NCBI RefSeq assembly: GCF_030658505.1
Contig: NZ_JAUTXR010000094.1
Location: 1 to 45,333 of the forward strand
Source: Stenotrophomonas raiganjensis (SeqCode)
GTDB taxonomy: Bacteria; Pseudomonadota; Gammaproteobacteria; Xanthomonadales; Xanthomonadaceae
DNA length: 45,333 nucleotides
Direction of reading: 5' to 3'
Shown: one piece after another, positions 16,524-38,884 of the stretch
Layout: the number at the start of each line of letters is the position of its first letter
Position numbering within the stretch: position 1 is the stretch's first letter
Position numbers and translations under genes: made by a program
The notes under the pieces: model-generated
The model's input: the letters and a program-made list of their open reading frames with translations, nothing else
The model's database searches: none
What the model was told of the DNA's origin: nothing

Positions 16524-16590
16524 ATCCGGGTCATCGTCGGCAGCACGCATACACCTGCCGCGTCCGCGCATACGTGCGCCCACGCTCAAA

Positions 16591-16605
16591 TGACAATAAT
16601 TCTCA
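16591..16605. promoter_or_regulatory. Fur box upstream of the siderophore receptor
   Basis: TGACAATAATTCTCA agrees with the 7-1-7 Fur core (TGATAAT-A-ATTATCA) at 13 of 15 positions. It ends 29 bases before the receptor's ATG. The receptor would thus be repressed by iron-loaded Fur and activated by the upstream AraC-type protein. Confidence 0.72.
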
Positions 16606-16634
16606 TCCGGCCTTTCCCTCCTGCTGGATCTCCC

Positions 16635-18806
16635 ATGCCTGCCTGTATCCGCCCGAGTGCCCTGGCAACCGCCATCGGCGCGACCCTGGCGCTGTTCAAC
16701 GCCGCCCATGCCGCCGAGCGCGCCCCGTCCGCGACGACCTCCCAGCTCCCAACCGTGCAGGTCACTGCCGACCTCGATGGCAGTACCGAAACGTCGCGTT
16801 CCTACACCACCGATTCCATGGGTACGGCGACCGGCCTGTCGCTGACCTCACGGCAGACCCCGCAATCGGTCAGCGTCATCACCCGCCAGCAGATCGAGGA
16901 CCGCGGGCTGCTCAGCACCGCCGATGCACTGGCCACCGCTCCGGGAATCTCGGTCACGCGCAGTGATGCCAACCGCTACTCGTTCTCGGCACGTGGCTTC
17001 GACATCGATAACTACCAGTTCGACGGTGTGGTCATGCCAGTGCTGTCGCCGTGGAATTTCGGCGAAAACAACCTGGACATGGTGGTGTACGACCGCATCG
17101 AGATCGTGCGCGGCGCCAATGGCCTGATGACCGGTGCCGGCAACCCCTCGGCGGCGGTGAACTATGTGCGCAAGCGTCCGCTGCGTGATTTCGCTGCCAG
17201 CGGTGGCATCAGCCTCGGCAGCTGGGACGCGCGCCGCGCCTGGGTGGACGTGTCCAGCCCACTCAGCCGGGAAGGGCGCGTGCGTGGCCGCGTGGTCGCC
17301 GCGCAGGCCGAGGGGGACAGCTATACGGCGGGCCTGGACAGCACCGCGAAGACGTTCTACGGCGTGGTCAGCATGGACCTGGGCGAGGACACCGGATTGA
17401 TCGCCGGTATCTCCTACCAGGATAACGACAACCGCGGCTTCGGCAGTGGCTTCGCGCTGTTCAATGCCGACGGCACGCGTACCCGCTTCGATCGTTCGGT
17501 ATCGGCCACCGCGCCGTGGGCCCGGATGACCACCGACACCCGCAACGGCTTCTTCGATTTCAATCATCGCTTCAGCAATGACTGGCAGGCGCGCGTGTCC
17601 TACAGCCGTTCGCACACCGACATGGAAATGAAGCATCTCTACCGCGGCGGCTATCCCGATCCGGTCACGGGTGCCATGCCCAATGGCAACAGCTTCACCC
17701 GCTACGACGGTCCGGTGCGCCGCGAGGCGGTCAGTGCCAGCCTGAGCGGTCCGTTCCAGCTGTTCGGCCGCCAGCACACTGCGTCGGTGGGCTGGTCGCG
17801 CTCGCGAGATCAGATCGCACTGGGGCAGTACCGCGCACTGGCGCCGTTGCCACCGTTGGCCAGCTATTTCGACTGGCACGGGCCGGGCACGCCCGAGCCG
17901 GTGTGGGCCGGCAACACGACCCAGGCCGATGATCTGGACAATCATCAGAGTGGTGCCTATGCCGTGGCGCGGTTGTCGCTGGCCGATCCCCTGCATGTGA
18001 TCGTCGGTGGCCGCCTGAGCAACTGGGAGACCGACCAGGTCTACTTCGGCAGCAAGCGGAAGTACCGCTACCGAAACGAGTTCGTACCGTATGCCGGCGT
18101 GGTCTGGGACCTGAACGGCTACGGCAGCGCGTATGCCAGTTACACCGGCATCTTCAAACCACAGAACAACCGCAATGAATCCGGGCAGATCCTCGACCCG
18201 ATCAGCGGCCGCAGCTATGAGCTGGGCCTCAAGGGCAGTTGGTTGCAGGAGCGCTTGAATGCCTCGGCGGCACTGTTCCGCACCCAGCAGGACAACCTCG
18301 CCGAAGCTACCGGTGGGCTGGTCGAGGGCAGTACGCAGGCGGCGTATCGTGCGGTGAAGGGCGCAACGGTGGACGGCCTGGAACTGGAACTGGCCGGTGA
18401 GCCGCTGCCGGGTTGGAGCCTGGGCACCAGCTTCACCACCTTCATCGCGCAGGACGCGCAGGGCAGGGCGATCAACACCGCCAAGCCGCGCAGCCTGTTC
18501 AAGCTGTTCACCACCTGGCGGCTGCCCGGTGCCTGGGATCGGCTGACCATCGGCGGTGGCGTGGATTGGCAGAACCGCATGTACCAGACCGCCACCGCGC
18601 CAGGGAACCGGCGGGTGCCGGTGCAGCAGTCCAGCTACGCACTGGTCAACCTGATGACACGCTATCAGTTCAGTTCCAACGTGTCGGCAACGGTCAACAT
18701 CAACAACCTGTTCGATCGCCATTACTACTCGCAGATCGGCTTCTACAACCAGGGCTGGTACGGCGCACCACGAAACGTGATGTTCGCCGTGAAGGTCGGC
18801 TATTAA
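16635..18806 (+). CDS. TonB-dependent ferric-siderophore receptor
   Basis: The 723-residue outer-membrane receptor has a signal peptide (MPACIRPSALATAIGATLALFNAAHA), a TonB box region around LPTVQVTAD, a plug with LTSRQTPQSVSVITRQQIEDRG and FSARGFDIDNYQFDGVVMP, then VYDRIEIVRGANGLMTGAGNPSAAVNYVRKRP, and a barrel ending in aromatic Tyr (FAVKVGY). These plug motifs are those of the FhuE/FpvA/PupB type receptors for hydroxamate or mixed siderophores. There is no N-terminal signalling (STN) domain, consistent with control by the adjacent AraC protein instead of a sigma factor. The in-frame ATG at 16590 overlaps the Fur box, so 16635 is chosen. Confidence 0.92.
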   Translation: MPACIRPSALATAIGATLALFNAAHAAERAPSATTSQLPTVQVTADLDGSTETSRSYTTDSMGTATGLSLTSRQTPQSVSVITRQQIEDRGLLSTADALATAPGISVTRSDANRYSFSARGFDIDNYQFDGVVMPVLSPWNFGENNLDMVVYDRIEIVRGANGLMTGAGNPSAAVNYVRKRPLRDFAASGGISLGSWDARRAWVDVSSPLSREGRVRGRVVAAQAEGDSYTAGLDSTAKTFYGVVSMDLGEDTGLIAGISYQDNDNRGFGSGFALFNADGTRTRFDRSVSATAPWARMTTDTRNGFFDFNHRFSNDWQARVSYSRSHTDMEMKHLYRGGYPDPVTGAMPNGNSFTRYDGPVRREAVSASLSGPFQLFGRQHTASVGWSRSRDQIALGQYRALAPLPPLASYFDWHGPGTPEPVWAGNTTQADDLDNHQSGAYAVARLSLADPLHVIVGGRLSNWETDQVYFGSKRKYRYRNEFVPYAGVVWDLNGYGSAYASYTGIFKPQNNRNESGQILDPISGRSYELGLKGSWLQERLNASAALFRTQQDNLAEATGGLVEGSTQAAYRAVKGATVDGLELELAGEPLPGWSLGTSFTTFIAQDAQGRAINTAKPRSLFKLFTTWRLPGAWDRLTIGGGVDWQNRMYQTATAPGNRRVPVQQSSYALVNLMTRYQFSSNVSATVNINNLFDRHYYSQIGFYNQGWYGAPRNVMFAVKVGY

Positions 18807-22749: not shown

Positions 22750-22767
22750 TTGAAACGCCACTGTCAT
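22750..22767 (+). promoter_or_regulatory. Possible Pho box upstream of the ECF sigma gene
   Basis: TTGAAAC-GCCA-CTGTCAT has the 7-4-7 spacing of a PhoB site; the second heptamer is a perfect CTGTCAT and the first matches at 3 of 7 positions (10/14 in total). It lies 52 bases before the GTG start. On its own it is weak; it gains weight from the phosphatase genes downstream. Confidence 0.35.
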
Positions 22768-22818
22768 CGATGGCCGTCACCCTGCGGGGCTTTCCAGCCT
22801 CGGGGTGGTTGGCCGGCC

Positions 22819-23334
22819 GTGAACAGCGTGAGGATCTGGGAGAAGAGCTATGCGCTGCGGCGGCGGCTGCTGCGCGGCTTCTTCCTGCGTCGCGGTTCGG
22901 CCAGCGAGGATGCCGAAGACCTGGCGCAGGAGGTCTACCTGCGCCTGCTGCGCAGCACCGGCGAGGATGCCGATGCGGTCGAGAACCCGGAAGCCTACCT
23001 GTTCACCGTGGCGGCCAACCTGGCGCGCGAGCATGCGCGCGCGCGTTCGTCGTTGCCGCCACTGGAAGACGTCGACCTGCTGGCCGAAGTGCTGAAAAGC
23101 GAAGAAGACATCGAAGGCGAATTCGAGCGTGCGCAGCGCTGGAACGATATCCGCAGCACCATCGCACGGTTGCCGGCGACTACGCGGCGAGTGATGGAGC
23201 TGCACTACCGCGACGGGCTGGACTGCCCGGCCATCAGCCAGCAGCTGCAGGTTTCGGTGCACATGGTGCGCAAGCATATCGGCAAGGGGCTGGAAGCCTG
23301 CAGGAAGGCGCTGGGGGCCAGGGAATTCACATGA
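22819..23334 (+). CDS. ECF sigma factor, FecI-like
   Basis: The 171-residue product has sigma region 2 (LRRGSASEDAEDLAQEVYLRLLRS ... ENPEAYLFTVAANLAREHAR) and region 4 (TIARLPATTRRVMELHYRDGLDCPAISQQLQVSVHMVRKHIGKGLEACRKAL). Such sigma factors are held or activated by a FecR-type membrane protein and switch on the gene of the partner receptor. The only suitable start is GTG 22819, with a poor ribosome site, which suggests low expression; GTG 22828 is an alternative. Its stop overlaps the fecR start (ATGA), so the two are translationally coupled. The adjacent receptor carries the matching STN signalling domain. Confidence 0.92.
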   Translation: MNSVRIWEKSYALRRRLLRGFFLRRGSASEDAEDLAQEVYLRLLRSTGEDADAVENPEAYLFTVAANLAREHARARSSLPPLEDVDLLAEVLKSEEDIEGEFERAQRWNDIRSTIARLPATTRRVMELHYRDGLDCPAISQQLQVSVHMVRKHIGKGLEACRKALGAREFT

Positions 23335-24353
23335 ACCCGTATCCATCACGCAGGCCTGACGACGAGATCGCCCGTGAGGCGGCGCACTGGTTCGTCTGCA
23401 ATCGGGAGGGGGCGCTGGATGAGGCCGGGCGCCTCGCGTTCCTGGACTGGATGAAGCGCTCGCCGGAGCATGTGCGCGCCTACATGCGCACCGTCGCGTT
23501 GCACCGGCAGGTGGGCGAGGCGCTGCAATTGCCGTTGCCTGACGAGGCGGTGGTTCCACCGCGGCAGGTCGCCGCCAAGGTGGTGCCGCTGTTCGGTAGC
23601 GTGCACGCGCCGCCGCGCGCTGTGCCGCGCCGCGGTCGTGCGCGCTGGTGGGTGGCGGCTGCCGCAGCCTGTATCGCCCTGCTCGGCGTGGGCCTGGTAC
23701 CGCAGCTGATACCCACCGAGCAGCTGTACAGCGCCGACCATGGTGAGCTGCGTGACCTGGTGCTGCCCGACCAGACCCAGGTACGGCTCAACGCGGACAG
23801 TCGCCTGCGGGTACGCATGGGCGGGTTCAGCCGCAAGGTGGAGCTGCTGCAGGGTGAGGCCACATTCGACATCGCCCGCGACCGCCGTCCGTTCGAGGTG
23901 CAGGTGAACGGCCTGGAGATCCGGGACATTGGCACGGTGTTCGATGTCTCGCGACGGCTGCAGAGCACGCGCATCGGCGTGGTTTCCGGCGAGGTGGAAG
24001 TATGGAGCCAGGGTGTGGACGGCCGGCGTCTTGCGCAACTGGGCGAAGGCCGGGTGGTGCAGGTCGACGCGCGCAGCCATGCGGTCGAGCCATTGGACCT
24101 GCCATTGTCGATGCTGCTGGATTGGCAGCAGCGCAAAGTGTCCTTCCTCGATGAGCGGCTGGACGAGGTGGCCGCTGCCTTCAACCGCCACAACCAGGTG
24201 CAGGTGCGGGTGCTGGATGAAGGTGCGGCGTCGGCGCGGCTGTCCGGCAGCCTGGATGCACATCGTATCGGTGCGTTGCAGGCGTTCCTCGAGCGCGACC
24301 CGCGTTTCGTGGTGAGGCGCGAAGGCGACACGGTGCGGGTCGGCAGTCGCTGA
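23331..24353 (+). CDS. FecR-type anti-sigma / sigma regulator
   Basis: The 340-residue inner-membrane protein relays a signal from the outer-membrane receptor to the sigma factor. The N-terminal cytoplasmic domain (residues 1 to about 100) has the FecR-N pattern EIAREAAHWFVCNREG ... RLAFLDWMKRSPEHVRAYM. One membrane segment spans about 106-124 (WWVAAAAACIALLGVGLVP). The periplasmic FecR domain follows (STEQLYSADHGELRDLVLPDQTQVRLNADSRLRVR resembles the family core), and the C-terminal 80 residues (DERLDEVAAAFNRHNQVQV ... FVVRREGDTVRV) form the receptor-contacting domain. ATG 23331 overlaps the sigma gene by 4 bases. Confidence 0.92.
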   Translation: MNPYPSRRPDDEIAREAAHWFVCNREGALDEAGRLAFLDWMKRSPEHVRAYMRTVALHRQVGEALQLPLPDEAVVPPRQVAAKVVPLFGSVHAPPRAVPRRGRARWWVAAAAACIALLGVGLVPQLIPTEQLYSADHGELRDLVLPDQTQVRLNADSRLRVRMGGFSRKVELLQGEATFDIARDRRPFEVQVNGLEIRDIGTVFDVSRRLQSTRIGVVSGEVEVWSQGVDGRRLAQLGEGRVVQVDARSHAVEPLDLPLSMLLDWQQRKVSFLDERLDEVAAAFNRHNQVQVRVLDEGAASARLSGSLDAHRIGALQAFLERDPRFVVRREGDTVRVGSR

Positions 24354-24369
24354 GGGCGGCGGCCGTGCA

Positions 24370-24419
24370 CTGTCAGAAAAAATTCATCGAATCCGCGTTC
24401 TCCACTTCGGTGGACGCGG
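24370..24419 (+). promoter_or_regulatory. Putative promoter of the signalling receptor, with a TTCG hairpin
   Basis: Between fecR and the receptor gene lies CTGTCAGAAAAAATTCAT (24370-24387), an A-rich GAAAAAATTC block of the kind seen at -35 in promoters read by FecI-type sigma factors; it also fits a 7-4-7 Pho box at 10 of 14 positions. Just after it, CCGCG-TTC-TCCAC / GTGGA-CGCGG closes on a TTCG tetraloop (24393-24419), a stable mRNA 5' hairpin. Which of these is used cannot be told from sequence alone. Confidence 0.45.
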
Positions 24420-24492
24420 GCTCTTACATGGGAGAAGCCGCTGTCGAGATGCACAGCGGCACCTGCTGCTTTCTCTCTTCCAAGGACCCGTG

Positions 24493-27426
24493 ATGCGCAA
24501 CACGCTTTACCTGTCGATCATCCTCGCCCTGTCTCCGTGCAGCGTACCGTCGGCTTTCGCGGCCGGTAGCGATGGGCTGGAGGCGCGAGTGTCTACCCCG
24601 ATCGCGGCGCAGCCGTTGGCGCGTGCGCTGGAGCAGTTGTCGCGCAGTTCCGGGGTGCAGTTCCTGTACTCGGCCGGCGGTGATGCCCGTATGGCCGGTG
24701 CGGTGCCGCGCGGTGCCACCGTCAAGCAGGCGCTGGACGCGCTGCTGGCAGGGACCGGCCTGGGCTACACCGTGGTGGATGGCAATGTCATCGCCATCGA
24801 TCCGGCGCCAGCACGCAACCAACCGAAACCGGCCGCGCCGAAGCCACGGGAGGCCGAGGCGGTGGTGGCACCGACCCTGGGTACGGTGAAGGTGATCGCC
24901 GCGCATGAGGTGATCGACCAGAAGAAGACCTCGCCGGTGATCAAGGATTCGGTGGTCTACGATGAGATGGACAGCTACGGTGACGAGACCCTGGCCGAAA
25001 GCCTGATGGCCGCGCCGGGCCTGAGCGCGGTGGAGGATGCCGGCGAGCCCCGCTATGTGACGGTGCGGGGCGTACAGGCCAATCTGAACTACACCACCAT
25101 CGATGGCATCGCGATTGCCAGCGTGGGCGGTAGCGGCTCGGGCGAGCGCATGAACAACCTGCAGCTGATTCCCAGCGATATCGGCACCCGCACCGACATC
25201 TACAAGAGCTTCAGCGCCGAGCAGGCGCCGGATGCAATCGGCGGCGTGATCGACATCATCAGCCGCAGTGCCTTCGACCGTTCCGGCAGGTACGTGTTCG
25301 CCGATGTGGCCGGCATCCATTCCACGGCCGAGACCAACGTCGAGCGCAGTGCCGGTGGCAACCACGAGACCCTGGGTCACTTCGGCAAGAGCGCCAAGTT
25401 GGTGTTCTCCAACCAGTTCGGTGCCGAGCAGGAATTCGGCCTCGTTGCGGTAGCGCGCTATGAGCAGCGTTCGCGCAACAGCGTCAAGCGCTGGGTGGAG
25501 TCGAACTACTACTACAACGACGCCGGCAAGTACCTCACCGACGGCACCACCGGGCCGGACGAGGCCAAGGGCTGGAACGGCCTGCGTGCGCCCGGCAATT
25601 TCAGCACCGGCACCTACACCAATTTCATCACCAATTTCGGTGGCTCGGCCAAGCTGGAATGGAAGCCGTCGGACGATCCGTTCTATGCGTCGCTGCTGTT
25701 GTATTCGTATCGGTTCTACGAGAACTCGACGATGAACAAGACCGACCTGTACGGCAATGCCAAGTTTCCGATCCGCAACCAGACCGAAGACAGCGGCACC
25801 ACCCAGATCAACAGCATCTACATCAAGAACCGGCACGACCGCTGGGACCGCAACAACCGCGGTGCCATCGCCAGCTTCAACTGGGATATCGGTGATCGCT
25901 CGCGGCTGACCCTGCGTGGCGGCCACACCGAAGAGACCTTCCACAACAGCCAGGTCTACTGGGGCGTGCGCGCTTACCCCAGCAACCTGTTCGTCGACTA
26001 CGAGAACGACAGCCACGGTTTCCCGAACGCAGTGGCGGTTTCCGATTCCAGCCTGCTGGCCAGCTCGGCGTTCAAGCTCAACCCGGCACAGGCCTATGTC
26101 TCGCCGCGTGATGCCAAGGAGAGCATCGACAACCTGCGCGCGGACTTCAGCTACAACATCGACGCCGACGCGCATGGCTTCGGCCTGGCGGCCGGTGCCG
26201 AGTACCGCCACCTGAAGATCTGGCAGGACATCGACTTCGACTACTACAAGAGCAGTGCGACGCTGAACGACTATCTGTACCCCGGCTCGACCCTGCTGGG
26301 CAGCGTGCCGGGGTTCCCGTTGATCGACAACCGCAAGTGGAACGAAGAGCTGGCGCCGAAGCTGGGCAGCAACAACGCGGCCTACCCGAATGCCGATTTC
26401 ACCAGCGACTACAGGTACGTGGAGAACATCACCAACGCCTATGCCTCGGCGCACTACGCCTGGGACCGGTTGCTGCTGATCGGAGGCCTGCGCTACGACC
26501 ACACGCGCTTCGATGCGTACAGCCCGTTCAGCGATAACGGCGGTACCACCTACACGTCGGCCTTCCGCAGGACCGGCGGCGGCTACAATAACCTGCTGCC
26601 GTCATTGAATGCGACGTTCAAGCTGAGCGAGGACCAGCGCCTGCGCTTCTCCGCCAGCCGCACGCTGGGCCGGCCGACGCCCAGCAACATTGCCCAGGCC
26701 ACCAGTACCAGCTGTGGCGATGACGAGGAGGGCAGGGGCTTCTGCAGCATCAAGCAGGGCAACGCCAACCTGCAGCCGCGCCGTTCCACCAACATCGACC
26801 TGGCGTGGGACCTGTACTTCAACGGCAACAATGGGTTGGTCTCGGTGGCGCTGTTCGACAAGGTGATCAAGGACGACATCTACACCCTCACCACGTTCGA
26901 GAACGTGGGAGACACCCGCTACCGGGTCACCCAGCCGATGAACACCGACGAGTCGAAGCTGCGTGGCGTCGAGTTCGCGGTGGCCAATCGCAATCTGCAG
27001 CGGGGCCGCCAGCGCTTCGACATGTATTTCAATGCAACCCGGCTGGAAGGCCAGACCAACTACCGCATCAGCGACGGCACCGAGCGACGCCTGGACCGCC
27101 TGCTCTATCAGCCGGACTGGTCGCTCAATGGCTCGGTGATCTGGCGCATGCCGTGGAAGAGCGCACAACTGCGCCTGTCCGGAACCTACCGCAGCCGGAT
27201 GCTGGTCGACTTCGGTGACACCGAATGGCTGGATTCGTACTACGACCCGTACGTGACCTTCAACATGGCCTTCAGCCACAAGGTCAGCAAGCACGTGACG
27301 CTGAAGTACGAGGCCAAGAACCTGTTCAACACCCAGCCGACCTACAGCACCGGCCCGAACGGGCGCTTCCGCACCGAGATCGACGACTACGGCCGCTTCT
27401 TCTACTTCCACATCATCTACAACTGA
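24493..27426 (+). CDS. FecA-type TonB-dependent receptor with STN signalling domain
   Basis: The 977-residue outer-membrane receptor has a signal peptide (MRNTLYLSIILALSPCSVPSAFA), an STN domain at about residues 29-103 (ISTPIAAQPLARALEQLSRSSGVQFLYS-like; VKQALDALLAGTGLGYTVVDGNVIAI), a plug (ESLMAAPGLSAVEDAGEPRYVTVRGVQANLNYTTIDGI) and a large barrel. The STN domain touches FecR in the periplasm, so substrate binding would activate the upstream sigma factor. Length and the long loops are those of receptors of the Caulobacter/Xanthomonas type rather than classic siderophore receptors. phoD follows after 10 bases, which links the substrate to phosphate esters. Start is ATG 24493 (a GTG lies one codon before). 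Confidence 0.9.
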   Translation: MRNTLYLSIILALSPCSVPSAFAAGSDGLEARVSTPIAAQPLARALEQLSRSSGVQFLYSAGGDARMAGAVPRGATVKQALDALLAGTGLGYTVVDGNVIAIDPAPARNQPKPAAPKPREAEAVVAPTLGTVKVIAAHEVIDQKKTSPVIKDSVVYDEMDSYGDETLAESLMAAPGLSAVEDAGEPRYVTVRGVQANLNYTTIDGIAIASVGGSGSGERMNNLQLIPSDIGTRTDIYKSFSAEQAPDAIGGVIDIISRSAFDRSGRYVFADVAGIHSTAETNVERSAGGNHETLGHFGKSAKLVFSNQFGAEQEFGLVAVARYEQRSRNSVKRWVESNYYYNDAGKYLTDGTTGPDEAKGWNGLRAPGNFSTGTYTNFITNFGGSAKLEWKPSDDPFYASLLLYSYRFYENSTMNKTDLYGNAKFPIRNQTEDSGTTQINSIYIKNRHDRWDRNNRGAIASFNWDIGDRSRLTLRGGHTEETFHNSQVYWGVRAYPSNLFVDYENDSHGFPNAVAVSDSSLLASSAFKLNPAQAYVSPRDAKESIDNLRADFSYNIDADAHGFGLAAGAEYRHLKIWQDIDFDYYKSSATLNDYLYPGSTLLGSVPGFPLIDNRKWNEELAPKLGSNNAAYPNADFTSDYRYVENITNAYASAHYAWDRLLLIGGLRYDHTRFDAYSPFSDNGGTTYTSAFRRTGGGYNNLLPSLNATFKLSEDQRLRFSASRTLGRPTPSNIAQATSTSCGDDEEGRGFCSIKQGNANLQPRRSTNIDLAWDLYFNGNNGLVSVALFDKVIKDDIYTLTTFENVGDTRYRVTQPMNTDESKLRGVEFAVANRNLQRGRQRFDMYFNATRLEGQTNYRISDGTERRLDRLLYQPDWSLNGSVIWRMPWKSAQLRLSGTYRSRMLVDFGDTEWLDSYYDPYVTFNMAFSHKVSKHVTLKYEAKNLFNTQPTYSTGPNGRFRTEIDDYGRFFYFHIIYN

Positions 27427-27436
27427 GGGTTCATCC

Positions 27437-29032
27437 GTGGAGACGATCAATCGCAGGCGATTCCTGGCCTTGGCCGGCTTGTCGGCCGCCGGGGCCTGGA
27501 TGGGCACGGCGCGCGCACTGGCCGCGCAGACCGACGCCACTGCACTGAACCCACGCAACCTGCTGGCCTCGCCGCGCTTTGCCAGCACGCCGTTCACCAT
27601 GGGCGTGGCCTCGGGTGATCCCTCGGCCGATGGCATGGTGCTGTGGACGCGGCTGGCGACCGAGCCGCTGGTGTTCGGTGGTGGCATGCCGACCCGGCCG
27701 ATGGTGGTCGAGTGGCAGCTGGCAGCAGACGAAGGCATGCGCAGGGTGCTACGCCAGGGTTCGGCAATGGCGCATCCCGAGCTGGGCCATGCCGTGCATG
27801 TGGAACTGGAGGGGCTGGCACCGGGCCGGCCCTACTGGTACCGCTTCACGGTAGGGGGGCATGCCAGTGCGGTGGGCTGTACCCGCACGCTGCCCGCCGC
27901 TACGGCCGCGGTCGATCGGGTCCGCTTCGCGGTGGCCGGGTGCCAGCACTACGAGGAAGGCCACTACACCGCGTGGCGGCGCATCGCCGAGGAACCGCTG
28001 GATTTCGTCTTCCACTACGGTGATTACATCTACGAGGGTGAAAGCCAGCCGGGCCTGCGGAAGATGAACGGCCAGCCGTTCACCAACCTGCGCAACCACA
28101 TCGGCCCGCAGACCTATACGCTGGACGACTACCGCCGCCGCTACGCGCAGTACAAGAGCGATGCCGACCTGCAGGCCGCGCATGCGTCGGCACCGTGGTT
28201 CGTCACCTTCGATGACCACGAAGTGGACAACAACTGGGCCGGCGCCGAGGACCAGGACGATACGCCCAGCGAAGTGTTCCTGCTGCGCCGCGCGCAGGCG
28301 TTCCAGGCCTACTACGAGAACATGCCGCTGCGCCGTTCGGCGTTCCCGCGCGATGGCCACATGCAGATGTACCGGCGCGCACGCTACGGCACGCTGATGG
28401 ACCTGCACCTGCTCGACACCCGCCAGTACCGCAGCAAGCAGGTGAACATGGCACGGCGTGAGGACGTGGAATCACCGGAGCGCAGCATCGTCGGTGCGAA
28501 GCAGGAACGCTGGCTGTTCGACGGCCTGGCCGATGCCGCGCCGCGCTGGCATACCATCGCCCACCAGGTGGCGCTGGGCAACTACATGCGCGAGAAGGAC
28601 GGGGTGGTGCAGTCGTCCGATGACCAGTGGTCGGGCTATCTGGGCAGCCGCCGGCGCCTGCTCGACCACATCCAGAAGGTCGGCTTCGGCAACGTGGTGA
28701 CCGCCTGTGGCGACGCGCACCGCCACTACGCCAGTGATCTGGTGCAGGATCACCGTGACTCAGGGGTGATCTCCAGTGAGTTCCTCGCCACCTCGATCAC
28801 CTCCGGGGCCGATGGCCAGGGCGTGGACGCGTATGCCAGGAACCAGCTTGCACACAGCCCCTATCTGAAGGCGACCACCGACAAGCGTGGCTATGTGCTG
28901 TGTGATGTCACCCGTGATGCCTGGATCGGCGACATGAAGACGCTCGATTCCGTGATGCAGCCAAACGGAACCCTGCAGAGCTGGAAGCGCTATGGGGTGG
29001 AACATGGTCGGCCAGGGCTGCAGGAGGCCTGA
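27437..29032 (+). CDS. phoD: Alkaline phosphatase D (PhoD), Tat-exported
   Basis: PhoD enzymes are Ca/Fe-dependent phosphatases/phosphodiesterases that free phosphate from organic esters outside the cytoplasm. The 531-residue product has a twin-arginine signal (NRRRFLALAG at the N terminus), an N-terminal Ig-like domain (FTMGVASGDPSADGMVLWTRL) and the catalytic metallophosphatase domain with DYIYEGE, FVTFDDHEVDNNWAG, and VTACGDAHRHYASDL plus EFLATSITSGADG. Start is GTG 27437 with GAGGG 7 bases upstream. It lies 10 bases after the receptor, so it is almost surely in the same operon and under the same sigma factor. Confidence 0.93.
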   Translation: METINRRRFLALAGLSAAGAWMGTARALAAQTDATALNPRNLLASPRFASTPFTMGVASGDPSADGMVLWTRLATEPLVFGGGMPTRPMVVEWQLAADEGMRRVLRQGSAMAHPELGHAVHVELEGLAPGRPYWYRFTVGGHASAVGCTRTLPAATAAVDRVRFAVAGCQHYEEGHYTAWRRIAEEPLDFVFHYGDYIYEGESQPGLRKMNGQPFTNLRNHIGPQTYTLDDYRRRYAQYKSDADLQAAHASAPWFVTFDDHEVDNNWAGAEDQDDTPSEVFLLRRAQAFQAYYENMPLRRSAFPRDGHMQMYRRARYGTLMDLHLLDTRQYRSKQVNMARREDVESPERSIVGAKQERWLFDGLADAAPRWHTIAHQVALGNYMREKDGVVQSSDDQWSGYLGSRRRLLDHIQKVGFGNVVTACGDAHRHYASDLVQDHRDSGVISSEFLATSITSGADGQGVDAYARNQLAHSPYLKATTDKRGYVLCDVTRDAWIGDMKTLDSVMQPNGTLQSWKRYGVEHGRPGLQEA

Positions 29033-29049
29033 ATCTGCCGATCTGCCAC

Positions 29050-29077
29050 GTAGAGCCGAGCGTGGGCTCGGCTCTAC
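29050..29077. terminator. GTAG-type REP palindrome as bidirectional terminator
   Basis: GTAGAGCCGAGC (29050-29061) and GCTCGGCTCTAC (29066-29077) form a perfect 12-bp stem with loop GTGG, a textbook SMAG-type palindrome. It sits between the convergent phoD and phospholipase genes and probably ends both transcripts. Confidence 0.8.
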
Positions 29078-29087
29078 AGAGGGCTCC

Positions 29088-31208
29088 TCAATCATGCTCG
29101 AACCGCAATGGCTCGGTGCCCATCGCCGGGTCGCTGGTGCCGGGGCGTCCATCCTCGGCACGTCCGGCCAGGCGCAGCTCGCTCTCACCGGCGCCGATCT
29201 GCAGGTCGTACCAGCCTGCGGTGGGCGCCGCTTCCCAAGCCACCGTGGTCTCGGCATGCGCCGGCAGCGCCAGTGCCTGCCCGGGCATGTGCCCGGCATA
29301 GGCGCCGGCCCGCACCTGCAGGTGCTGCGGGCTGTCACCCAGGTTGCGCAGGCGCAGCCGCAGCTGGCCCTCCGTGCGCTCGACGGTGGCCTCGATCGCG
29401 GATGCCCTGGCGCTGCCCTTGATGTGTCGGTGGAAGCCGTTCGGGCCCAGCAGCCACAGGTCGTATCGACCCTGGGCGTCCAACGGCCAGCGCTCGCGCA
29501 GCGGCGTACCCGGCGCCAGCGTGTAGCGGCGCGGTACCGCATCAAGCCGCAGCCGGTCGTACACATGCAGCACCGCCGGTGCGCCTTCGCAGGACAACGT
29601 CAGCTCCACGCCCGACGTGCCGACCGCAGCAATCGATGCCTGTGGCCGATAGGGCAGGGCACGCGCTGGGCGCACGCCGCTTTCCTGCTTCGCCGGCTTC
29701 AGTCCCTCCGGCAGTGCGGGCACGGTGCGTCCCGGCAGGGCGGCCGCACGTGCCGCCACCGCGCTCACGTCCGGCAGGCCACGCACGAACGGTCGGGTAT
29801 CGCGCTGGGCGAAGTCGAAGGCATTGCTCAAATCGCCGCAGACCGCTCGGCGCCACGGTGAGATGTCCGGTGCGGCCACGCCGAAGCGGCGTTCGATCAG
29901 CCGTATGACCGAGGTGTGGTCGTACACCTGCGAATCAACCCAGCCGCCGCGGCTCCACGGCGAGATCACGTACAGCGGCACGCGCGGGCCCAGGCCGTAG
30001 GGGCGGCCGCGCAGCTCGGTGGCGTCGTGTTTTTCATCACCCGGCGCCGGATGACGGTGATATTCGCCCTCGGTGCTGATTGAGGATGCGCCCGCCCAAC
30101 CGCCGTCCACCGGCGAAGGCGGGGCTGGTGGCGGCATGTGGTCGAAGAAGCCGTCGTTCTCGTCGAACATCAGCAGTAGCGCGGTACGGCTCCACACCTG
30201 CGGATCGGCGGTCAGCGCGTCCAGCACGCGCGCGGTATAGGCCGCGCCCTGTGCCGGGCTGGACGGGTCGGGATGTTCGCTGCCGGCGGCATCGGCGATG
30301 ATGAAGCTCACCTGCGGCAGGCGCCCGCCGATGACGTCCTGGCGCAGCTGCGCCAGTCCGCGCGTGCTGACCCCGCGAGCGCGCAGCTGCGGATCATGCC
30401 CGGGTGCCGCGCTGTAGGCCCGACGGAATGCCTCGAAGCCGGCCAGCGGGTTGTCGGTGAAGTTGTCGGCCATGTCCTGGTAGATCTGCCAGGATATTCC
30501 GGCGTCCTGCAGGCGCTCGACATAGCTGGTCCAGCGGTATGACCCCGGATGACCGCCGTGCTCGGGGAAGTTGTCGTGCGAGTTGGCGATGACCGGGCCA
30601 CCGGCGCGCGCCTGGGCATCGTTGTGCCCGGTCCACAGGAACACCCGGTTCGGGTTGGTGCCGGCCTGCATCGCGCAGTGGTAGGCGTCGCAGATCGTGA
30701 ACGCATCGGCCAGCGCGAACTGGAACGGCATGTCGCTGCGCTGGAAGTAGCCCATGGAGTGGTTCTGCTTGGCCTTCGGCCAGTGCCCCATGCGGCCGTG
30801 GTCCCAGGCGCGCTGCGCATCGGGCCAGGTGTGCGGCGTGCCTTCCACCCGCATGTAGCCGAAGTGCGCGGCGGTATCCAGCGGGAACGGTGCGATCGCC
30901 CGCGTGCCACTGGCATCGGGCTGCAGCCACAGGTTGCGCGCGCGGCCACCGGCCTGCAGCGCGGGGGCCGGGGCCACGAAGCGGTCACCGAAACCACGTA
31001 CGCCCGGCAGCGTGCCGAAGTAGTGGTCGAACGAACGGTTCTCCTGCATGAACACCACGATGTGCTGCAGGTCTTCGAGGCTGCGCGTCTGCGCGGCGGG
31101 GGCGATCGCTGCGGCCCGTGCGATGCTGGGCAGCAGCGGAGAAAGGCCGGCGGCAACGCCGGCCTGCAACAACCGGCGTCGGCCGATATCGGTCACGGGC
31201 TCACTCAC
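29088..31208 (-). CDS. plcN: Phosphocholine-type phospholipase C, Tat-exported
   Basis: The 706-residue enzyme belongs to the phospholipase C / acid phosphatase family that hydrolyses phosphatidylcholine and related lipids. A twin-arginine signal (GRRRLLQAG) precedes the catalytic domain with HIVVFMQENRSFDHYFGTL, TGHNDAQARAGGPVIANSHDN, and FDENDGFFDHMPPP. Two C-terminal beta domains of the DUF756 type follow (GVELTLSCEGAPAVLHVYDRL; RTEGQLRLRLRNLGDSPQHLQVRAG). Length fits P. aeruginosa PlcN (about 690). The start is GTG 31208, overlapping the stop of the upstream receptor by 4 bases (GTGA), so the pair is translationally coupled. Released phosphocholine or diacylglycerol could feed phosphate and carbon supply. 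Confidence 0.93.
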   Translation of the reverse strand: MSEPVTDIGRRRLLQAGVAAGLSPLLPSIARAAAIAPAAQTRSLEDLQHIVVFMQENRSFDHYFGTLPGVRGFGDRFVAPAPALQAGGRARNLWLQPDASGTRAIAPFPLDTAAHFGYMRVEGTPHTWPDAQRAWDHGRMGHWPKAKQNHSMGYFQRSDMPFQFALADAFTICDAYHCAMQAGTNPNRVFLWTGHNDAQARAGGPVIANSHDNFPEHGGHPGSYRWTSYVERLQDAGISWQIYQDMADNFTDNPLAGFEAFRRAYSAAPGHDPQLRARGVSTRGLAQLRQDVIGGRLPQVSFIIADAAGSEHPDPSSPAQGAAYTARVLDALTADPQVWSRTALLLMFDENDGFFDHMPPPAPPSPVDGGWAGASSISTEGEYHRHPAPGDEKHDATELRGRPYGLGPRVPLYVISPWSRGGWVDSQVYDHTSVIRLIERRFGVAAPDISPWRRAVCGDLSNAFDFAQRDTRPFVRGLPDVSAVAARAAALPGRTVPALPEGLKPAKQESGVRPARALPYRPQASIAAVGTSGVELTLSCEGAPAVLHVYDRLRLDAVPRRYTLAPGTPLRERWPLDAQGRYDLWLLGPNGFHRHIKGSARASAIEATVERTEGQLRLRLRNLGDSPQHLQVRAGAYAGHMPGQALALPAHAETTVAWEAAPTAGWYDLQIGAGESELRLAGRAEDGRPGTSDPAMGTEPLRFEHD

Positions 31209-33583
31209 AGGTCCACGCGGAAGGAGATGCCGACGGTGCGCGGGGCGCCGATGAAGGCGTTGTCGCGGCCGTCCACCCCCGCAAGATACCGCTTATCGGT
31301 GAGGTTGCTCACCACCAGGTTGGCACCCAAGCCCTTCAGGCGCGGCGACAGGCCCTGCAGGTCGAAACCGATGTTGGCATTGAACACGGTGGCCGAGGGC
31401 AGCGTGTTGACGTTGGCGGCATCAAGGTAGCGCGTGCCCAGGTAACGCCCGGACAGGCCGAAGTTCCAGTTGGCGCCCTGCCAGTCGGCCGACAGCACCA
31501 GGGTGTTCTCCGGCTGGCCGATCACCTTGGCACCGTCGACGATGCCGAGCTGCGTATCGCGTGCGGCATTGCCACTGCCCAGGTATTTGGAGCGGTTGTA
31601 GGTGTAGGCCGCGTTGATCCGCCAGCCATTGTCCCACCCATAGCCGAACGCCGCTTCCAGGCCGTTGCTTTCCACGCCACCGAAGTTCTCGTAGACGCCG
31701 TCGGTCTCGCCCAGGTAGTCGATGCCGCTGACGAAGCCCGCCGGCAGGTAGACGATGCGGTTGTCGAACTTGATGTTGTACAGGGTCACCGAGGCGGTCA
31801 GCGGCCAGCGGCTGATACGCATGCCCACTTCGATGTTGTCGGCGGTCTCCGGTTCGACATTGCGGAAGCGCTGCGGGTCGGTCTCGCCGAGCACGCCGGA
31901 GGGAATCGCGGCGAAGTTCTGCGAGAAGCCGGCGAACAGCTCCATGCCTTCCACGCCGGGTGCCCAGGTGAAGCCGGTGGAGAGCAGCGGATCGGACCTG
32001 GAATCGGAGGTGACGTGCTCGCTGGCGCCGATCACACGGCGGCGCGACTGGTCGACGAAGAACTGCTTCACGCCCAGGCGCGCGCTGAACGGGCCGAAGC
32101 GGGCCACGTCCTCGATGTAGTACATCTGCTCATCAACCTTGTACTTGTCCTCGAACTGCACCCAGTACGGCTGGTGATCGAAGGCGATGTCCTGGCCGAC
32201 GTTGAGCAGTCGGTGCCAGTCGCGGCGCGCCGAGCGGTCCAGCTTCTCCACCCACAGGCCGCCGCGAATGGTGTTGTCGATGGCGCCGAAAGTCTGCCGC
32301 CACTCGACGTCGGCGGTCACGCCCATGCGGTCGTTGTCGTAGTGGGTATGGCGATACGATTGCGCGCCCAGCACGTTGCCGGCGTAGCAGTCCGGATCAT
32401 ATTCGGCAGTGAACCCCAGCCGCGGTGTGCAGTTGGCCAGGCGCTGCGCGGCGCTGCCGTCGGGATTGACGAAGAAGATCTGGCCGCGGTTGCTGCCGCC
32501 ATACACGGTCTTTCCACCGATGTACTCCGACTCGGGGCGGCCCGCACCGTCATCGCTGACCTGCGCCAGGTACGGTGGCAGCCAGTCGCCGCGGCCTTGC
32601 ATGCGGTGCCCGTAGGCGGCCACCGAGGCCTTGAATCCATTGCCGCCATCGAACGCAGCGCGCAGGTAGCCGAAGGTGTTCTCGCGCAGGGCGCGCGAAC
32701 CGGAGCGGTAGTTCTGGTCCAGGTACGGAATGCCGGTGAGGGTGCCGACCAGGTTGTCGCGTTCCGGGTTGGTGGCGAAGCCCTTCGGCGAAACGCTGGT
32801 GTATTCCGGCTCGTCGGCATCGTTGTAGGACAGGTAGCCGGTCAGCGTCCAGCGGTCCAGCTCGGTGATGAACTTGCCAGCGATGTGGTCGTTGCTGGCG
32901 TGACCGGTGCCATCGATCCAGTCGTGTACTTTTGCCGAAGAGGCGCTGACCCAGGCACGGGTGTGGCCACCGAGCAGGCCGGTGTCGTAGCGCACGTAGT
33001 ACTTGCGTGCCTCGTTGTCGCCGGCACCGACGACGAAGCGCAGCCGGCTGTCCTGCAACGGGTCGCTGGTGAGGAAGTTGAGCGTGCCACCCAGCGCTTC
33101 GTTCGAGCGCGAGGAAATATCGGCCGTGCCTTGGCTGACTTCCACTGTTTCCAGGTCCAGAGTGTCGATGTAGCGGTTGGCCAGCGAGCCGCCGCCGTAT
33201 CCCGAGCCGCCATTGGGCAGGCCATCGATGGTGGTGCCGATCTGCTGCGTATCACGATTGGTGACGAATCCACGCATGCTGATCTGTGTGCCCCACACCG
33301 ACGAACCGGTGGCATCGGCCTCGCTGACCACCACGCCCGGCACTTCGTTGAGTGCATCGTTGACGCTGCTCATCACGGTCTGCCGGTTCAGCGTTTCCGT
33401 GCGCACCGAGGTCTTGGCGTAGCTGGTGGCCTGGCCGATCACCTGCACCTGGTCCAGGGTACGGGCATCACTGCTGCGTGCCTCGGCCGCGTCGCCCTGC
33501 GGTGCTTCGGCCAGGGCGTCCAGTGCGGGGGCGATCAGCAGGGCAAGCAGCGAGACACGGGGAAAGCGCGCAATCGTTCGCAT
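31205..33583 (-). CDS. TonB-dependent receptor coupled to phospholipase C
   Basis: The 792-residue receptor has a signal peptide (MRTIARFPRVSLLALLIAPALDALA), a TonB-box region LDQVQVIGQ, a plug (NDALNEVPGVVVSEADATGSSVWGTQISMRGF ... IDGLPNGGSGYGGGSLANRYIDTLDLETVEVSQGTADISSRSNEALGGTLNF) and a barrel ending ISFRVDL. It lacks an STN domain, so it transports but does not signal. GAAGG is placed before ATG 33583 and a good Pho box lies 49 bases further up. The phospholipase C gene overlaps its end, which suggests that it imports a product of lipid or phosphoester breakdown. The substrate itself is not known. Confidence 0.9.
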   Translation of the reverse strand: MRTIARFPRVSLLALLIAPALDALAEAPQGDAAEARSSDARTLDQVQVIGQATSYAKTSVRTETLNRQTVMSSVNDALNEVPGVVVSEADATGSSVWGTQISMRGFVTNRDTQQIGTTIDGLPNGGSGYGGGSLANRYIDTLDLETVEVSQGTADISSRSNEALGGTLNFLTSDPLQDSRLRFVVGAGDNEARKYYVRYDTGLLGGHTRAWVSASSAKVHDWIDGTGHASNDHIAGKFITELDRWTLTGYLSYNDADEPEYTSVSPKGFATNPERDNLVGTLTGIPYLDQNYRSGSRALRENTFGYLRAAFDGGNGFKASVAAYGHRMQGRGDWLPPYLAQVSDDGAGRPESEYIGGKTVYGGSNRGQIFFVNPDGSAAQRLANCTPRLGFTAEYDPDCYAGNVLGAQSYRHTHYDNDRMGVTADVEWRQTFGAIDNTIRGGLWVEKLDRSARRDWHRLLNVGQDIAFDHQPYWVQFEDKYKVDEQMYYIEDVARFGPFSARLGVKQFFVDQSRRRVIGASEHVTSDSRSDPLLSTGFTWAPGVEGMELFAGFSQNFAAIPSGVLGETDPQRFRNVEPETADNIEVGMRISRWPLTASVTLYNIKFDNRIVYLPAGFVSGIDYLGETDGVYENFGGVESNGLEAAFGYGWDNGWRINAAYTYNRSKYLGSGNAARDTQLGIVDGAKVIGQPENTLVLSADWQGANWNFGLSGRYLGTRYLDAANVNTLPSATVFNANIGFDLQGLSPRLKGLGANLVVSNLTDKRYLAGVDGRDNAFIGAPRTVGISFRVDL

Positions 33584-33631
33584 CCAAACCGGACCTTCAG
33601 AGGGGGAAGCCCTGGAGTGTCGGCAGCGCCA

Positions 33632-33649
33632 ATGACATCGGCATGACGT
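33632..33649 (-). promoter_or_regulatory. Pho box upstream of the receptor-phospholipase operon
   Basis: Read on the minus strand the sequence is ACGTCAT-GCCG-ATGTCAT, two direct heptamers at 11-base period matching CTGTCAT at 5/7 and 6/7. It ends 48 bases before the receptor start. PhoB would activate the operon when phosphate is scarce. Confidence 0.65.
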
Positions 33650-37641: not shown

Positions 37642-37659
37642 CTGTCATCAGGCCGTCAT
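37642..37659 (+). promoter_or_regulatory. Pho box upstream of the lipoprotein hydrolase
   Basis: CTGTCAT-CAGG-CCGTCAT matches the two CTGTCAT heptamers at 13 of 14 positions with the correct 4-base spacer. A -10-like TAGATG (37670-37675) follows 10 bases after the box. The hydrolase ATG is 73 bases downstream of the box. Confidence 0.75.
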
Positions 37660-37732: not shown

Positions 37733-38884
37733 ATGAAGCGCCTGCTGCTGTTGTTGCTGGCGTGCGCCGGCCTGTGGCTGGCTGCATGCTCCCCTTCGAT
37801 CAATGCCGGGTCCACATCGCTCGCCGATCGACTGATCGCGCCGGGTGGCGTATCGACCCTGCTTGATCGCCCGCGCATTGCTGCGGCCATTGCCGAACTG
37901 CCGAACCGCCATGGTTTTGCGCCGGGCCGTGATGGCGTGCCGATCTTCTGGCGGGTGTTCGACCCTGGCGACTACGGTGCGCGCTACCACTACCTGCCGC
38001 AGCGCCACGAGAACGGCCTGCCGCTGGATACCGGCCTGAGCCTGTCGGTGCCACAGCCGTTCAAGGCACAGGCGCCGCGTGGCACCGTGGTGCTGCTGCA
38101 CGGCTGGATGATGAACGGTGATTCGATGCTGCCGTGGTCACTGCAGTTGGCCGAATCCGGCTACCGCGTGGTCACCCTCGACCTGCGCAACCACGGCCAG
38201 TCTGGTGCCGGCCCGTCCGGCTACGGCACCTATGAGTCCGATGACGTGGTCGATGTGATCGGCGAGCTGCGTGCGCGTGGCGAAGTGACCGGCCCGCTGT
38301 ACCTGTTCGGCGTGTCCTATGGCGCCGCCACGGCCGTGTTCACCGCTGACAAGCTGGGCGACCAGGTGGCCGGTGTGGTGGCGATGGAATCGTTCGCCAA
38401 CGCGGGCGTGGCGATCCGCACCATGATCCCGCACCTGATGGGACTGCAGCCGGAAGGCCTGAAGGCGCAGGCGGTGGCGTCGTACGCGCGCTGGCGCTAC
38501 GGCGGCCAGGATATCAACCAGGTGATCGCCGCCGCCAGCCGCCGCATCGATGTTGACCTGGACCGCGTGGACGTGGCGCGCGCGCTGGCCGATACCCGCG
38601 CCTGCGTACTGCTGCTGCACGGGCAGGGCGACCAGCACATTCCGGTCAGCCAGGGGCGTGAACTCGCGCGGGCCAATCCGCGCGCGCACTACATCGAAAT
38701 GCGTGGCGAGGACCATATCACCCTGCCACTGCGACTTGATCTCCTGGCCGGCGTAGTCGATGACTGGATGGCACGCGACGAGCAGCACCCGAAGAGCGTG
38801 TGCCCGGCGCCACAGCTCCCCGCCCAGGCCGAATGGCTGGTGCGCGGCGTCGACATGCCCGCCCGCCCTCCAGCCCGCAGCTGA
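37733..38884 (+). CDS. Alpha/beta-hydrolase lipoprotein, probably phosphate-starvation regulated
   Basis: The 383-residue product starts MKRLLLLLLACAGLWLAAC, a lipoprotein signal with lipid-anchored Cys19. An alpha/beta-hydrolase domain follows, with the oxyanion block VVLLHGWMMNGDSMLPW and a complete triad: Ser195 in GVSYG, Asp300 in GQGDQHIP and His328 in GEDHITL. The substrate is not evident; carboxylic esters or lipids are likely. A near-perfect Pho box upstream suggests that it is made when phosphate is short. The reading frame ends just inside the 20-bp inverted repeat that follows. The ribosome site is weak (GTGAT before ATG 37733). Confidence 0.87.
   Translation: MKRLLLLLLACAGLWLAACSPSINAGSTSLADRLIAPGGVSTLLDRPRIAAAIAELPNRHGFAPGRDGVPIFWRVFDPGDYGARYHYLPQRHENGLPLDTGLSLSVPQPFKAQAPRGTVVLLHGWMMNGDSMLPWSLQLAESGYRVVTLDLRNHGQSGAGPSGYGTYESDDVVDVIGELRARGEVTGPLYLFGVSYGAATAVFTADKLGDQVAGVVAMESFANAGVAIRTMIPHLMGLQPEGLKAQAVASYARWRYGGQDINQVIAAASRRIDVDLDRVDVARALADTRACVLLLHGQGDQHIPVSQGRELARANPRAHYIEMRGEDHITLPLRLDLLAGVVDDWMARDEQHPKSVCPAPQLPAQAEWLVRGVDMPARPPARS

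Follow-up and report, generated by a model that had tools for sequence, protein, structure and literature searches.

A 45,333-nucleotide stretch of contig NZ_JAUTXR010000094.1 (the window), part of the 4.7 Mb genome of Stenotrophomonas raiganjensis in 192 contigs, carries an island of genes for an extracytoplasmic function (ECF) sigma factor, a FecR-type regulator, two TonB-dependent receptors and two phosphoesterases, which probably encodes a two-step, phosphate-gated cell-surface signalling system for organic phosphate. This PhoB-linked reading, in line with the phosphate-ester scavenging proposed in a first-pass annotation of the same DNA, is drawn from the gene content, two conserved Pho boxes, no Fur-like box, a FecI-type promoter candidate found once in the genome, and linkage to phosphatases elsewhere.

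The gene content was as first annotated (Table 1). The sigma and fecR genes overlap by four bases (ATGA), the STN-domain receptor (receptor 1) and phoD follow in the same direction, and the set of ECF sigma factor, FecR and STN-domain TonB receptor stands together in one locus, as in FecIRA-type systems. The sigma protein exceeded the cut-off of an ECF superfamily model, with FecI models among its sub-cut-off matches. Receptor 1 scored 384 bits against TIGR01782 (TonB-Xanth-Caul; cut-off 310), and its sole PDB match at E <= 0.1 was a fragment of the ferric-pseudobactin 358 receptor (2a02, E 0.0014) in the N-terminal domain; no siderophore-receptor model matched it at E <= 0.001, whereas the FauA-type receptor of the same window was matched. 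PhoD aligned to the solved structure 2yeq with 440 bits, and C169, GDYxYE, DDHE and GDxH, which we take to be its metal-site motifs, align to 2yeq and are invariant across six aligned proteins; the protein is above the cut-off of Pfam PhoD and below that of NCBIfam NF058638 AlkPhosPhoDBac (515 against 1000). On the opposite strand, the gene for a phosphocholine-type phospholipase C (PLC; 832 bits against a cut-off of 580 for TIGR03396, with Pfam Phosphoesterase and PLipase_C_C) overlaps that of the second receptor (receptor 2) by four bases, so the coupling described for this pair holds; receptor 2 gave no STN match in the Pfam scan. Tat-like motifs do stand at the N-termini of both enzymes, and the Tat export announced for them is a prediction from the reading of those motifs.

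Table 1. Features of the island and related features of the window.
Feature	Position	Strand	Evidence or remark
Pho box before the sigma gene, TTGAAAC-GCCA-CTGTCAT, 12/14	22750..22767	+	Shuffles, column conservation
ECF sigma factor, FecI-type, 171 aa, GTG start	22819..23334	+	Pfam Sigma70_r2 and r4_2
FecR-type regulator, 340 aa	23331..24353	+	Pfam FecR 64 bits, DUF4880
FecI-type promoter candidate AAAAAATTCATCGA-N5-CGTTCTCC	24377..24403	+	Between fecR and receptor 1
STN-domain TonB-dependent receptor (receptor 1; signal transducer and barrel)	24493..27426	+	Pfam STN, Plug, barrel
PhoD-family phosphatase, Tat-like N-terminus NRRRFLALAG	27437..29032	+	Pfam PhoD 339 bits
Phosphocholine-type PLC, Tat-like N-terminus with GRRRLLQAG	29088..31208	-	TIGR03396 PC_PLC
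Second TonB-dependent receptor (receptor 2)	31205..33583	-	4-base overlap with PLC gene
Pho box before receptor 2-PLC, ACGTCAT-GCCG-ATGTCAT, 11/14	33632..33649	-	Shuffles, column conservation
FauA-type alcaligin siderophore receptor	16590..18806		NCBIfam NF049960, 1268 bits
Third Pho box, CTGTCAT-CAGG-CCGTCAT, 13/14	37642..37659	+	Before alpha/beta-hydrolase gene 37733..38884

PhoD was found at >=86% identity in 23 of the 61 genus genomes searched, S. raiganjensis included, and each of the 23 copies is preceded by the sigma gene, fecR and receptor 1. Receptor 2-PLC follows PhoD in 20 of the 23: it was not seen within 8.7 kb beyond PhoD in L038, nor within 1.5 kb in L039, and in L034 the contig ends before the region. 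Because of its absence beside PhoD in L038 and L039, receptor 2-PLC is a companion outside the core. At one locus (L040, genome G054) the PhoD frame is split in two, with sigma, fecR, both receptors and PLC matched nearly full length. The genome of S. raiganjensis has a second receptor-PhoD pair (L018:5397-9253, contig C178) whose genes share one base and whose PhoD is 40% identical to the first; no sigma/FecR pair was seen in the stretch around it, and its Pho score was 9/14 in a scan weakened by a late domain start as anchor.

Pho boxes were scored as matches over 14 half-site positions, with significance judged against dinucleotide shuffles (300 for each of the two island boxes). The box before the sigma gene, whose first base is also where the first-pass annotation began the island, scores 12/14 when either pyrimidine counts as a match at the two ends of each half. 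None of the 300 shuffles scored as high, and the 23 copies are identical at 9 of the 14 half-site columns compared with 9 of 78 other columns (Fisher 6.6e-5). The box before receptor 2-PLC, annotated as good, is present and strongly conserved in the 20 island copies (invariant columns: 12 of 14 in the half-sites and 26 of 108 elsewhere upstream, Fisher 1.2e-5; one of four in the spacer), but by itself it is not clearly above chance (p 0.087). The regions before receptor 1 (best score 10, p 0.525) and before PhoD (9, p 0.86) were unremarkable. PhoB is encoded elsewhere in the genome (368 bits against a cut-off of 296), and the one Pho box of the genome that fits without a mismatch stands before a Porin_O_P-type gene adjoining genes for two PstS-like binding proteins and a permease, which argues that the pattern does detect a phosphate locus.

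Even when up to three mismatches were allowed, the pattern of the promoter candidate between fecR and receptor 1 matched the genome at this one place (reversed-pattern control, 0). Its first element, AAA(A/G)ATTCATCGA, occupies the same place in 23/23 copies, and the second is kept with few substitutions. A TGTCA stretch abuts the -35-like element in 21 of the 23, and no second Pho half-site was found at this promoter (best 10/14, p 0.24). The arrangement suggests a regulatory cascade in which PhoB would act on the sigma gene, the sigma factor on receptor 1-PhoD, and PhoB directly on receptor 2-PLC.

The association between Pho boxes and phosphatase linkage was compared across genomes, taking as score the best Pho match within 260 bases before the sigma domain, with a cut at >=11/14. 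Initially, 8 of 11 PhoD-linked sigma genes scored at least 11 against 2 of 39 other FecI-type sigma genes (Fisher 1.2e-5); both exceptions among the controls came from one genome, and after the receptor their loci hold a histidine phosphatase (L224, Pfam His_Phos_2) and an MBL-like protein (L223), respectively. In a set chosen afterwards by histidine phosphatase, 9 of 10 sigma genes scored at least 11, these ten loci forming two sigma lineages and hence fewer than ten independent cases. With L224 and, later, L258 and L262 from a further control set moved to the phosphatase group, a box of at least 11/14 precedes 21 of the 26 phosphatase-linked sigma genes and none of the 42 other FecI-type ones (Fisher 3.5e-13), a count that leaves out L223 (score 11; 1/43 if taken as a control) and L287 (score 10; here the receptor and its histidine phosphatase are encoded upstream of sigma). 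The MBL-like partner in L223 had a sub-cut-off Pfam match only and no PDB match at E <= 0.01. Just three of the 23 island copies were entered (the window, L036 and L039), near copies L042, L087, L088 and L091 were omitted, and L268 offered 101 upstream bases for scoring. Pfam reported no phosphatase family among 31 genes that neighbour the receptor at 28 of the 35 control loci, five of these genes (L237, L247, L248) having no Pfam family or being the sole evidence at their locus; L233, L242, L243, L245, L250, L251, L257 and six loci of S. raiganjensis itself were checked by PhoD, histidine phosphatase and PLC profiles and by N-termini only, and the sigma genes of L250 and L251 have no clear FecR.

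Similar loci recur in other genera. Among the best 80 of 562 matched relatives in a PhoD survey of named genomes, the closest of which are Stenotrophomonas, 12 have genes for a sigma factor and FecR close to PhoD, and these come from the gammaproteobacterial genus Stenotrophomonas (L087, L088, L091, L147) and eight others: Acetobacter (L090), Novosphingobium (L092), Gluconacetobacter (L093), Komagataeibacter (L094), Croceibacterium (L095), Phenylobacterium (L125), Sphingobium (L148) and Sphingomonas (L160). Gene order varies among them, and an STN receptor is present in all except L094, where none was seen; no sigma/FecR pair occurs in the flanks, some of them short, of the other 68 loci. Two histidine phosphatases used as queries in 149 family genomes gave 29 matches in 17 genomes; three were already in the set, and 10 of the 26 new regions have the sigma-FecR-STN receptor-histidine phosphatase arrangement. 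Receptor genes also lie near histidine phosphatase genes with no sigma/FecR pair in family genomes (L272-L280, L286, L288), which suggests that receptor-phosphatase cassettes are common in the family. Such sigma-less receptors, linked to PhoD (13) or histidine phosphatase (12), mostly had no convincing Pho box in a scan weakened by late domain-start anchors (3 of 25 with shuffle p < 0.05: L098, L277 and the second receptor in L272).

The histories of the island's parts appear to differ. A quick tree of PhoD places the sigma-linked copies inside one 23-row group (support 82) and requires seven label changes for them, with L042 unlabelled despite its sigma and FecR genes. The window's sigma factor falls in a fully supported group of 17 rows, of which 16 are phosphatase-linked (three from this island, with PhoD, and 13 with histidine phosphatase); the remaining row, L238, has no Pho box. 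Receptor 1 has other neighbours: on a FastTree tree with long-branch warnings it clusters with receptors from PhoD loci of Acetobacter, Croceibacterium, Sphingomonas, Phenylobacterium, a Lysobacterales bin and L041 (10/10 rows PhoD-linked). A receptor from the PhoD-linked group with a sigma factor from the histidine-phosphatase group suits re-paired modules: here the receptor seems to have moved together with the phosphatase, and the sigma/FecR pair seems to have a different history. Such joint movement would fit a receptor that handles the phosphatase's substrate.

From the conserved sites we propose that, at low phosphate, PhoB would activate sigma-fecR and, separately, receptor 2-PLC. By homology to known FecIRA systems, FecR would then keep the sigma factor under control; once a phosphorus-containing substrate is bound by the STN receptor, the freed sigma factor would transcribe receptor 1-phoD from the conserved promoter found once in the genome. 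Receptor 1 would import organic phosphate too large or too scarce for porins, PhoD would cleave it in or near the periplasm, and the inorganic phosphate (Pi) would enter via Pst; lipids of the phosphatidylcholine type would be the province of PLC and the receptor encoded with it. A cell so equipped would pay for receptor and enzyme only if phosphate is short and substrate is present. In this scheme the genes with their overlaps, the conserved sites and the linkage are observed; PhoB binding, FecR control, the sigma target, transport and Tat export are all predicted from sequence.

The nearest known system is PUMA3 (VreA-VreI-VreR) of Pseudomonas aeruginosa, in which an ECF sigma/anti-sigma pair is under PhoB (accessible text of PMC4971064). 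The likeness, already remarked in the first-pass annotation, lies in the surface-signalling sigma/anti-sigma pair with a Pho box before the sigma-containing unit. VreA has no barrel, vreAIR is one operon and its targets include secretion systems and secreted proteins, whereas the island's receptor has STN, plug and barrel, lies downstream of fecR in an apparently separate unit with a phosphatase, and has no Pho box at the promoter that the sigma factor would recognize. The ferric citrate FecIRA system shares the ECF sigma factor, FecR and STN receptor, but the island has Pho boxes, no Fur-like box and a phosphatase gene after the receptor. In the phosphate-utilisation (PUS) loci of Flavobacterium, FecR-like and ECF sigma genes likewise stand together, with SusCD-like transporters and expression that rises on phosphate depletion; their architecture is that of Bacteroidetes SusCD, and the accessible text describes no PhoD coupling (PMC8115612). 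A sphingomonad organophosphate hydrolase-TonB complex resembles the island in tying a Tat-targeted phosphoesterase (Tat being predicted here) to TonB-dependent uptake, with organophosphate as phosphate source according to the accessible text, but has another enzyme, and the words 'FecR' and 'sigma' occur nowhere in the main text (PMC7142613). Nor do phosphate, PhoB or VreI occur in the main text of a review of ECF-controlled iron transport (PMC9249621). Open-access titles and abstract starts, with subscription literature mostly outside the search, yielded no proteobacterial sigma-FecR-receptor-PhoD or -phytase system under PhoB. Since PhoB-gated surface signalling is already known from PUMA3, what appears new is the full STN receptor with its attached phosphatase.

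The architecture alone would suggest an iron-type FecIRA system under Fur, with PhoD as a passenger or as an enzyme needing the imported iron as cofactor. PhoD does use Fe3+, and Fur-like boxes scoring 13, 13 and 15 of 19 precede three of the six other FecI-type sigma genes of this genome that were examined; with a 13/19 box upstream of the FauA-type siderophore receptor, these indicate that the method is able to detect iron promoters here. The scan used the 19-base Escherichia coli consensus, which the Xanthomonas form is said to resemble only weakly (accessible text of PMC1790865). The promoter sequences gave no sign of the iron/Fur regulation named at the outset as what would speak against phosphate: no Fur-like box stands out before sigma, receptor 1 or receptor 2 (9, 9 and 8 of 19; p 0.73, 0.885 and 0.995), scores no better than shuffles, and Pho boxes are found instead. 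The island promoters thus do not look iron-type, and a Fur-controlled iron system is unsupported. The model matches of receptor 1, unlike those of the FauA-type receptor, and the phosphatase linkage across several lineages add to this, and we consider the iron explanation very unlikely. The premise that FecIRA systems normally serve iron was itself too narrow for these bacteria, as in related genomes such receptors are followed by varied genes (among them ones for PepSY proteins, for peptidases, for subtilase autotransporters and for histidine phosphatases).

A reading closer to PUMA3, in which PhoB also acts at the receptor 1-PhoD promoter beside the sigma -35 element so that low phosphate would suffice with no substrate signal, is less easily set aside, although we still hold it to be unlikely. 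In PUMA3, PhoB binds at vreA but also at pdtA and phdA, both targets of sigma-VreI, and target genes are still expressed as in the wild type when vreA is deleted (accessible text of PMC4971064); the TGTCA next to the -35-like element could be a comparable foothold, but the second half-site is missing, and receptor 1, unlike VreA, has STN and a complete barrel. Least probable of the alternatives, in our judgement, is that the Pho boxes are chance matches and substrate alone controls the operon. The motif is short and degenerate, the window's boxes are imperfect, the genome-wide excess is small and the phylogeny-aware test is not significant, whereas half-site conservation and the contrast of 21/26 with 0/42 argue for real sites.

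Several observations nonetheless weigh against phosphate-gated signalling as proposed. The first half-site of the sigma-gene box (TTGAAAC) is poor, and the genome-wide Pho pattern with at most two mismatches gave 125 matches against 109 in the reversed control, counts that are uninformative as evidence. The cut-off of 11 was picked after the first scores were known; 5 of the 26 phosphatase-linked sigma genes have no box that reaches it, nor does L238, the closest phosphatase-free relative of the window's sigma factor. Some PhoD-linked receptors cluster elsewhere than receptor 1: L043, L147, L148 and L044 form a separate group, L092, L160 and L098 stand beside a histidine-phosphatase-linked receptor, and L093 and L018 fall among controls. 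Phosphatase linkage changes six times on the sigma tree, and the tree offers just four independent supported pairs (mean 2.5 concordant, 0 discordant; median sign test p 0.25). The association of Pho box and phosphatase is never contradicted, yet its independence from ancestry is not proved.

More tentatively, and at a little short of an even chance, the island may belong to a wider class of PhoB-licensed surface signalling in alpha- and gammaproteobacteria, in which FecI/FecR pairs have been re-paired with receptor-phosphatase cassettes (PhoD, histidine acid phosphatase, perhaps MBL-fold), each sensing and importing one large organic phosphate; we met no name for such a class among the open-access titles and abstract starts screened. 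In view of the activity of Bacillus subtilis PhoD, teichoic-acid-like polymers from Gram-positive neighbours are a candidate substrate for the PhoD cassettes. If phosphate-gated signalling is correct, surface signalling in Proteobacteria also serves phosphorus, under an AND logic that combines starvation with substrate, and candidate functions arise for sigma factors and receptors that are often taken to be iron-related. It would also offer a route to outer-membrane transporters of organic phosphate, relevant to soil phosphorus cycling.

Related FecI/FecR-type genes have other neighbours. In L239, L240 and L255, FecI, FecR and an STN receptor are followed by subtilase autotransporters (Pfam Peptidase_S8 and Autotransporter), and in S. 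raiganjensis itself one FecI/FecR-type pair (L017, contig C182:37000-52500) lies beside a GspG gene (Pfam T2SSG, 134 bits) and further pseudopilin-like genes. Elsewhere in the window, the third Pho box has a counterpart in 18 of the 22 relatives' loci scanned, and the alpha/beta-hydrolase gene, whose product carries a lipoprotein-like N-terminus, follows it in all 15 of those 18 whose sequence extends that far. In relatives, a GCGATAGATG stretch lies closely 3' of this box and may be the -10 region of the hydrolase gene.

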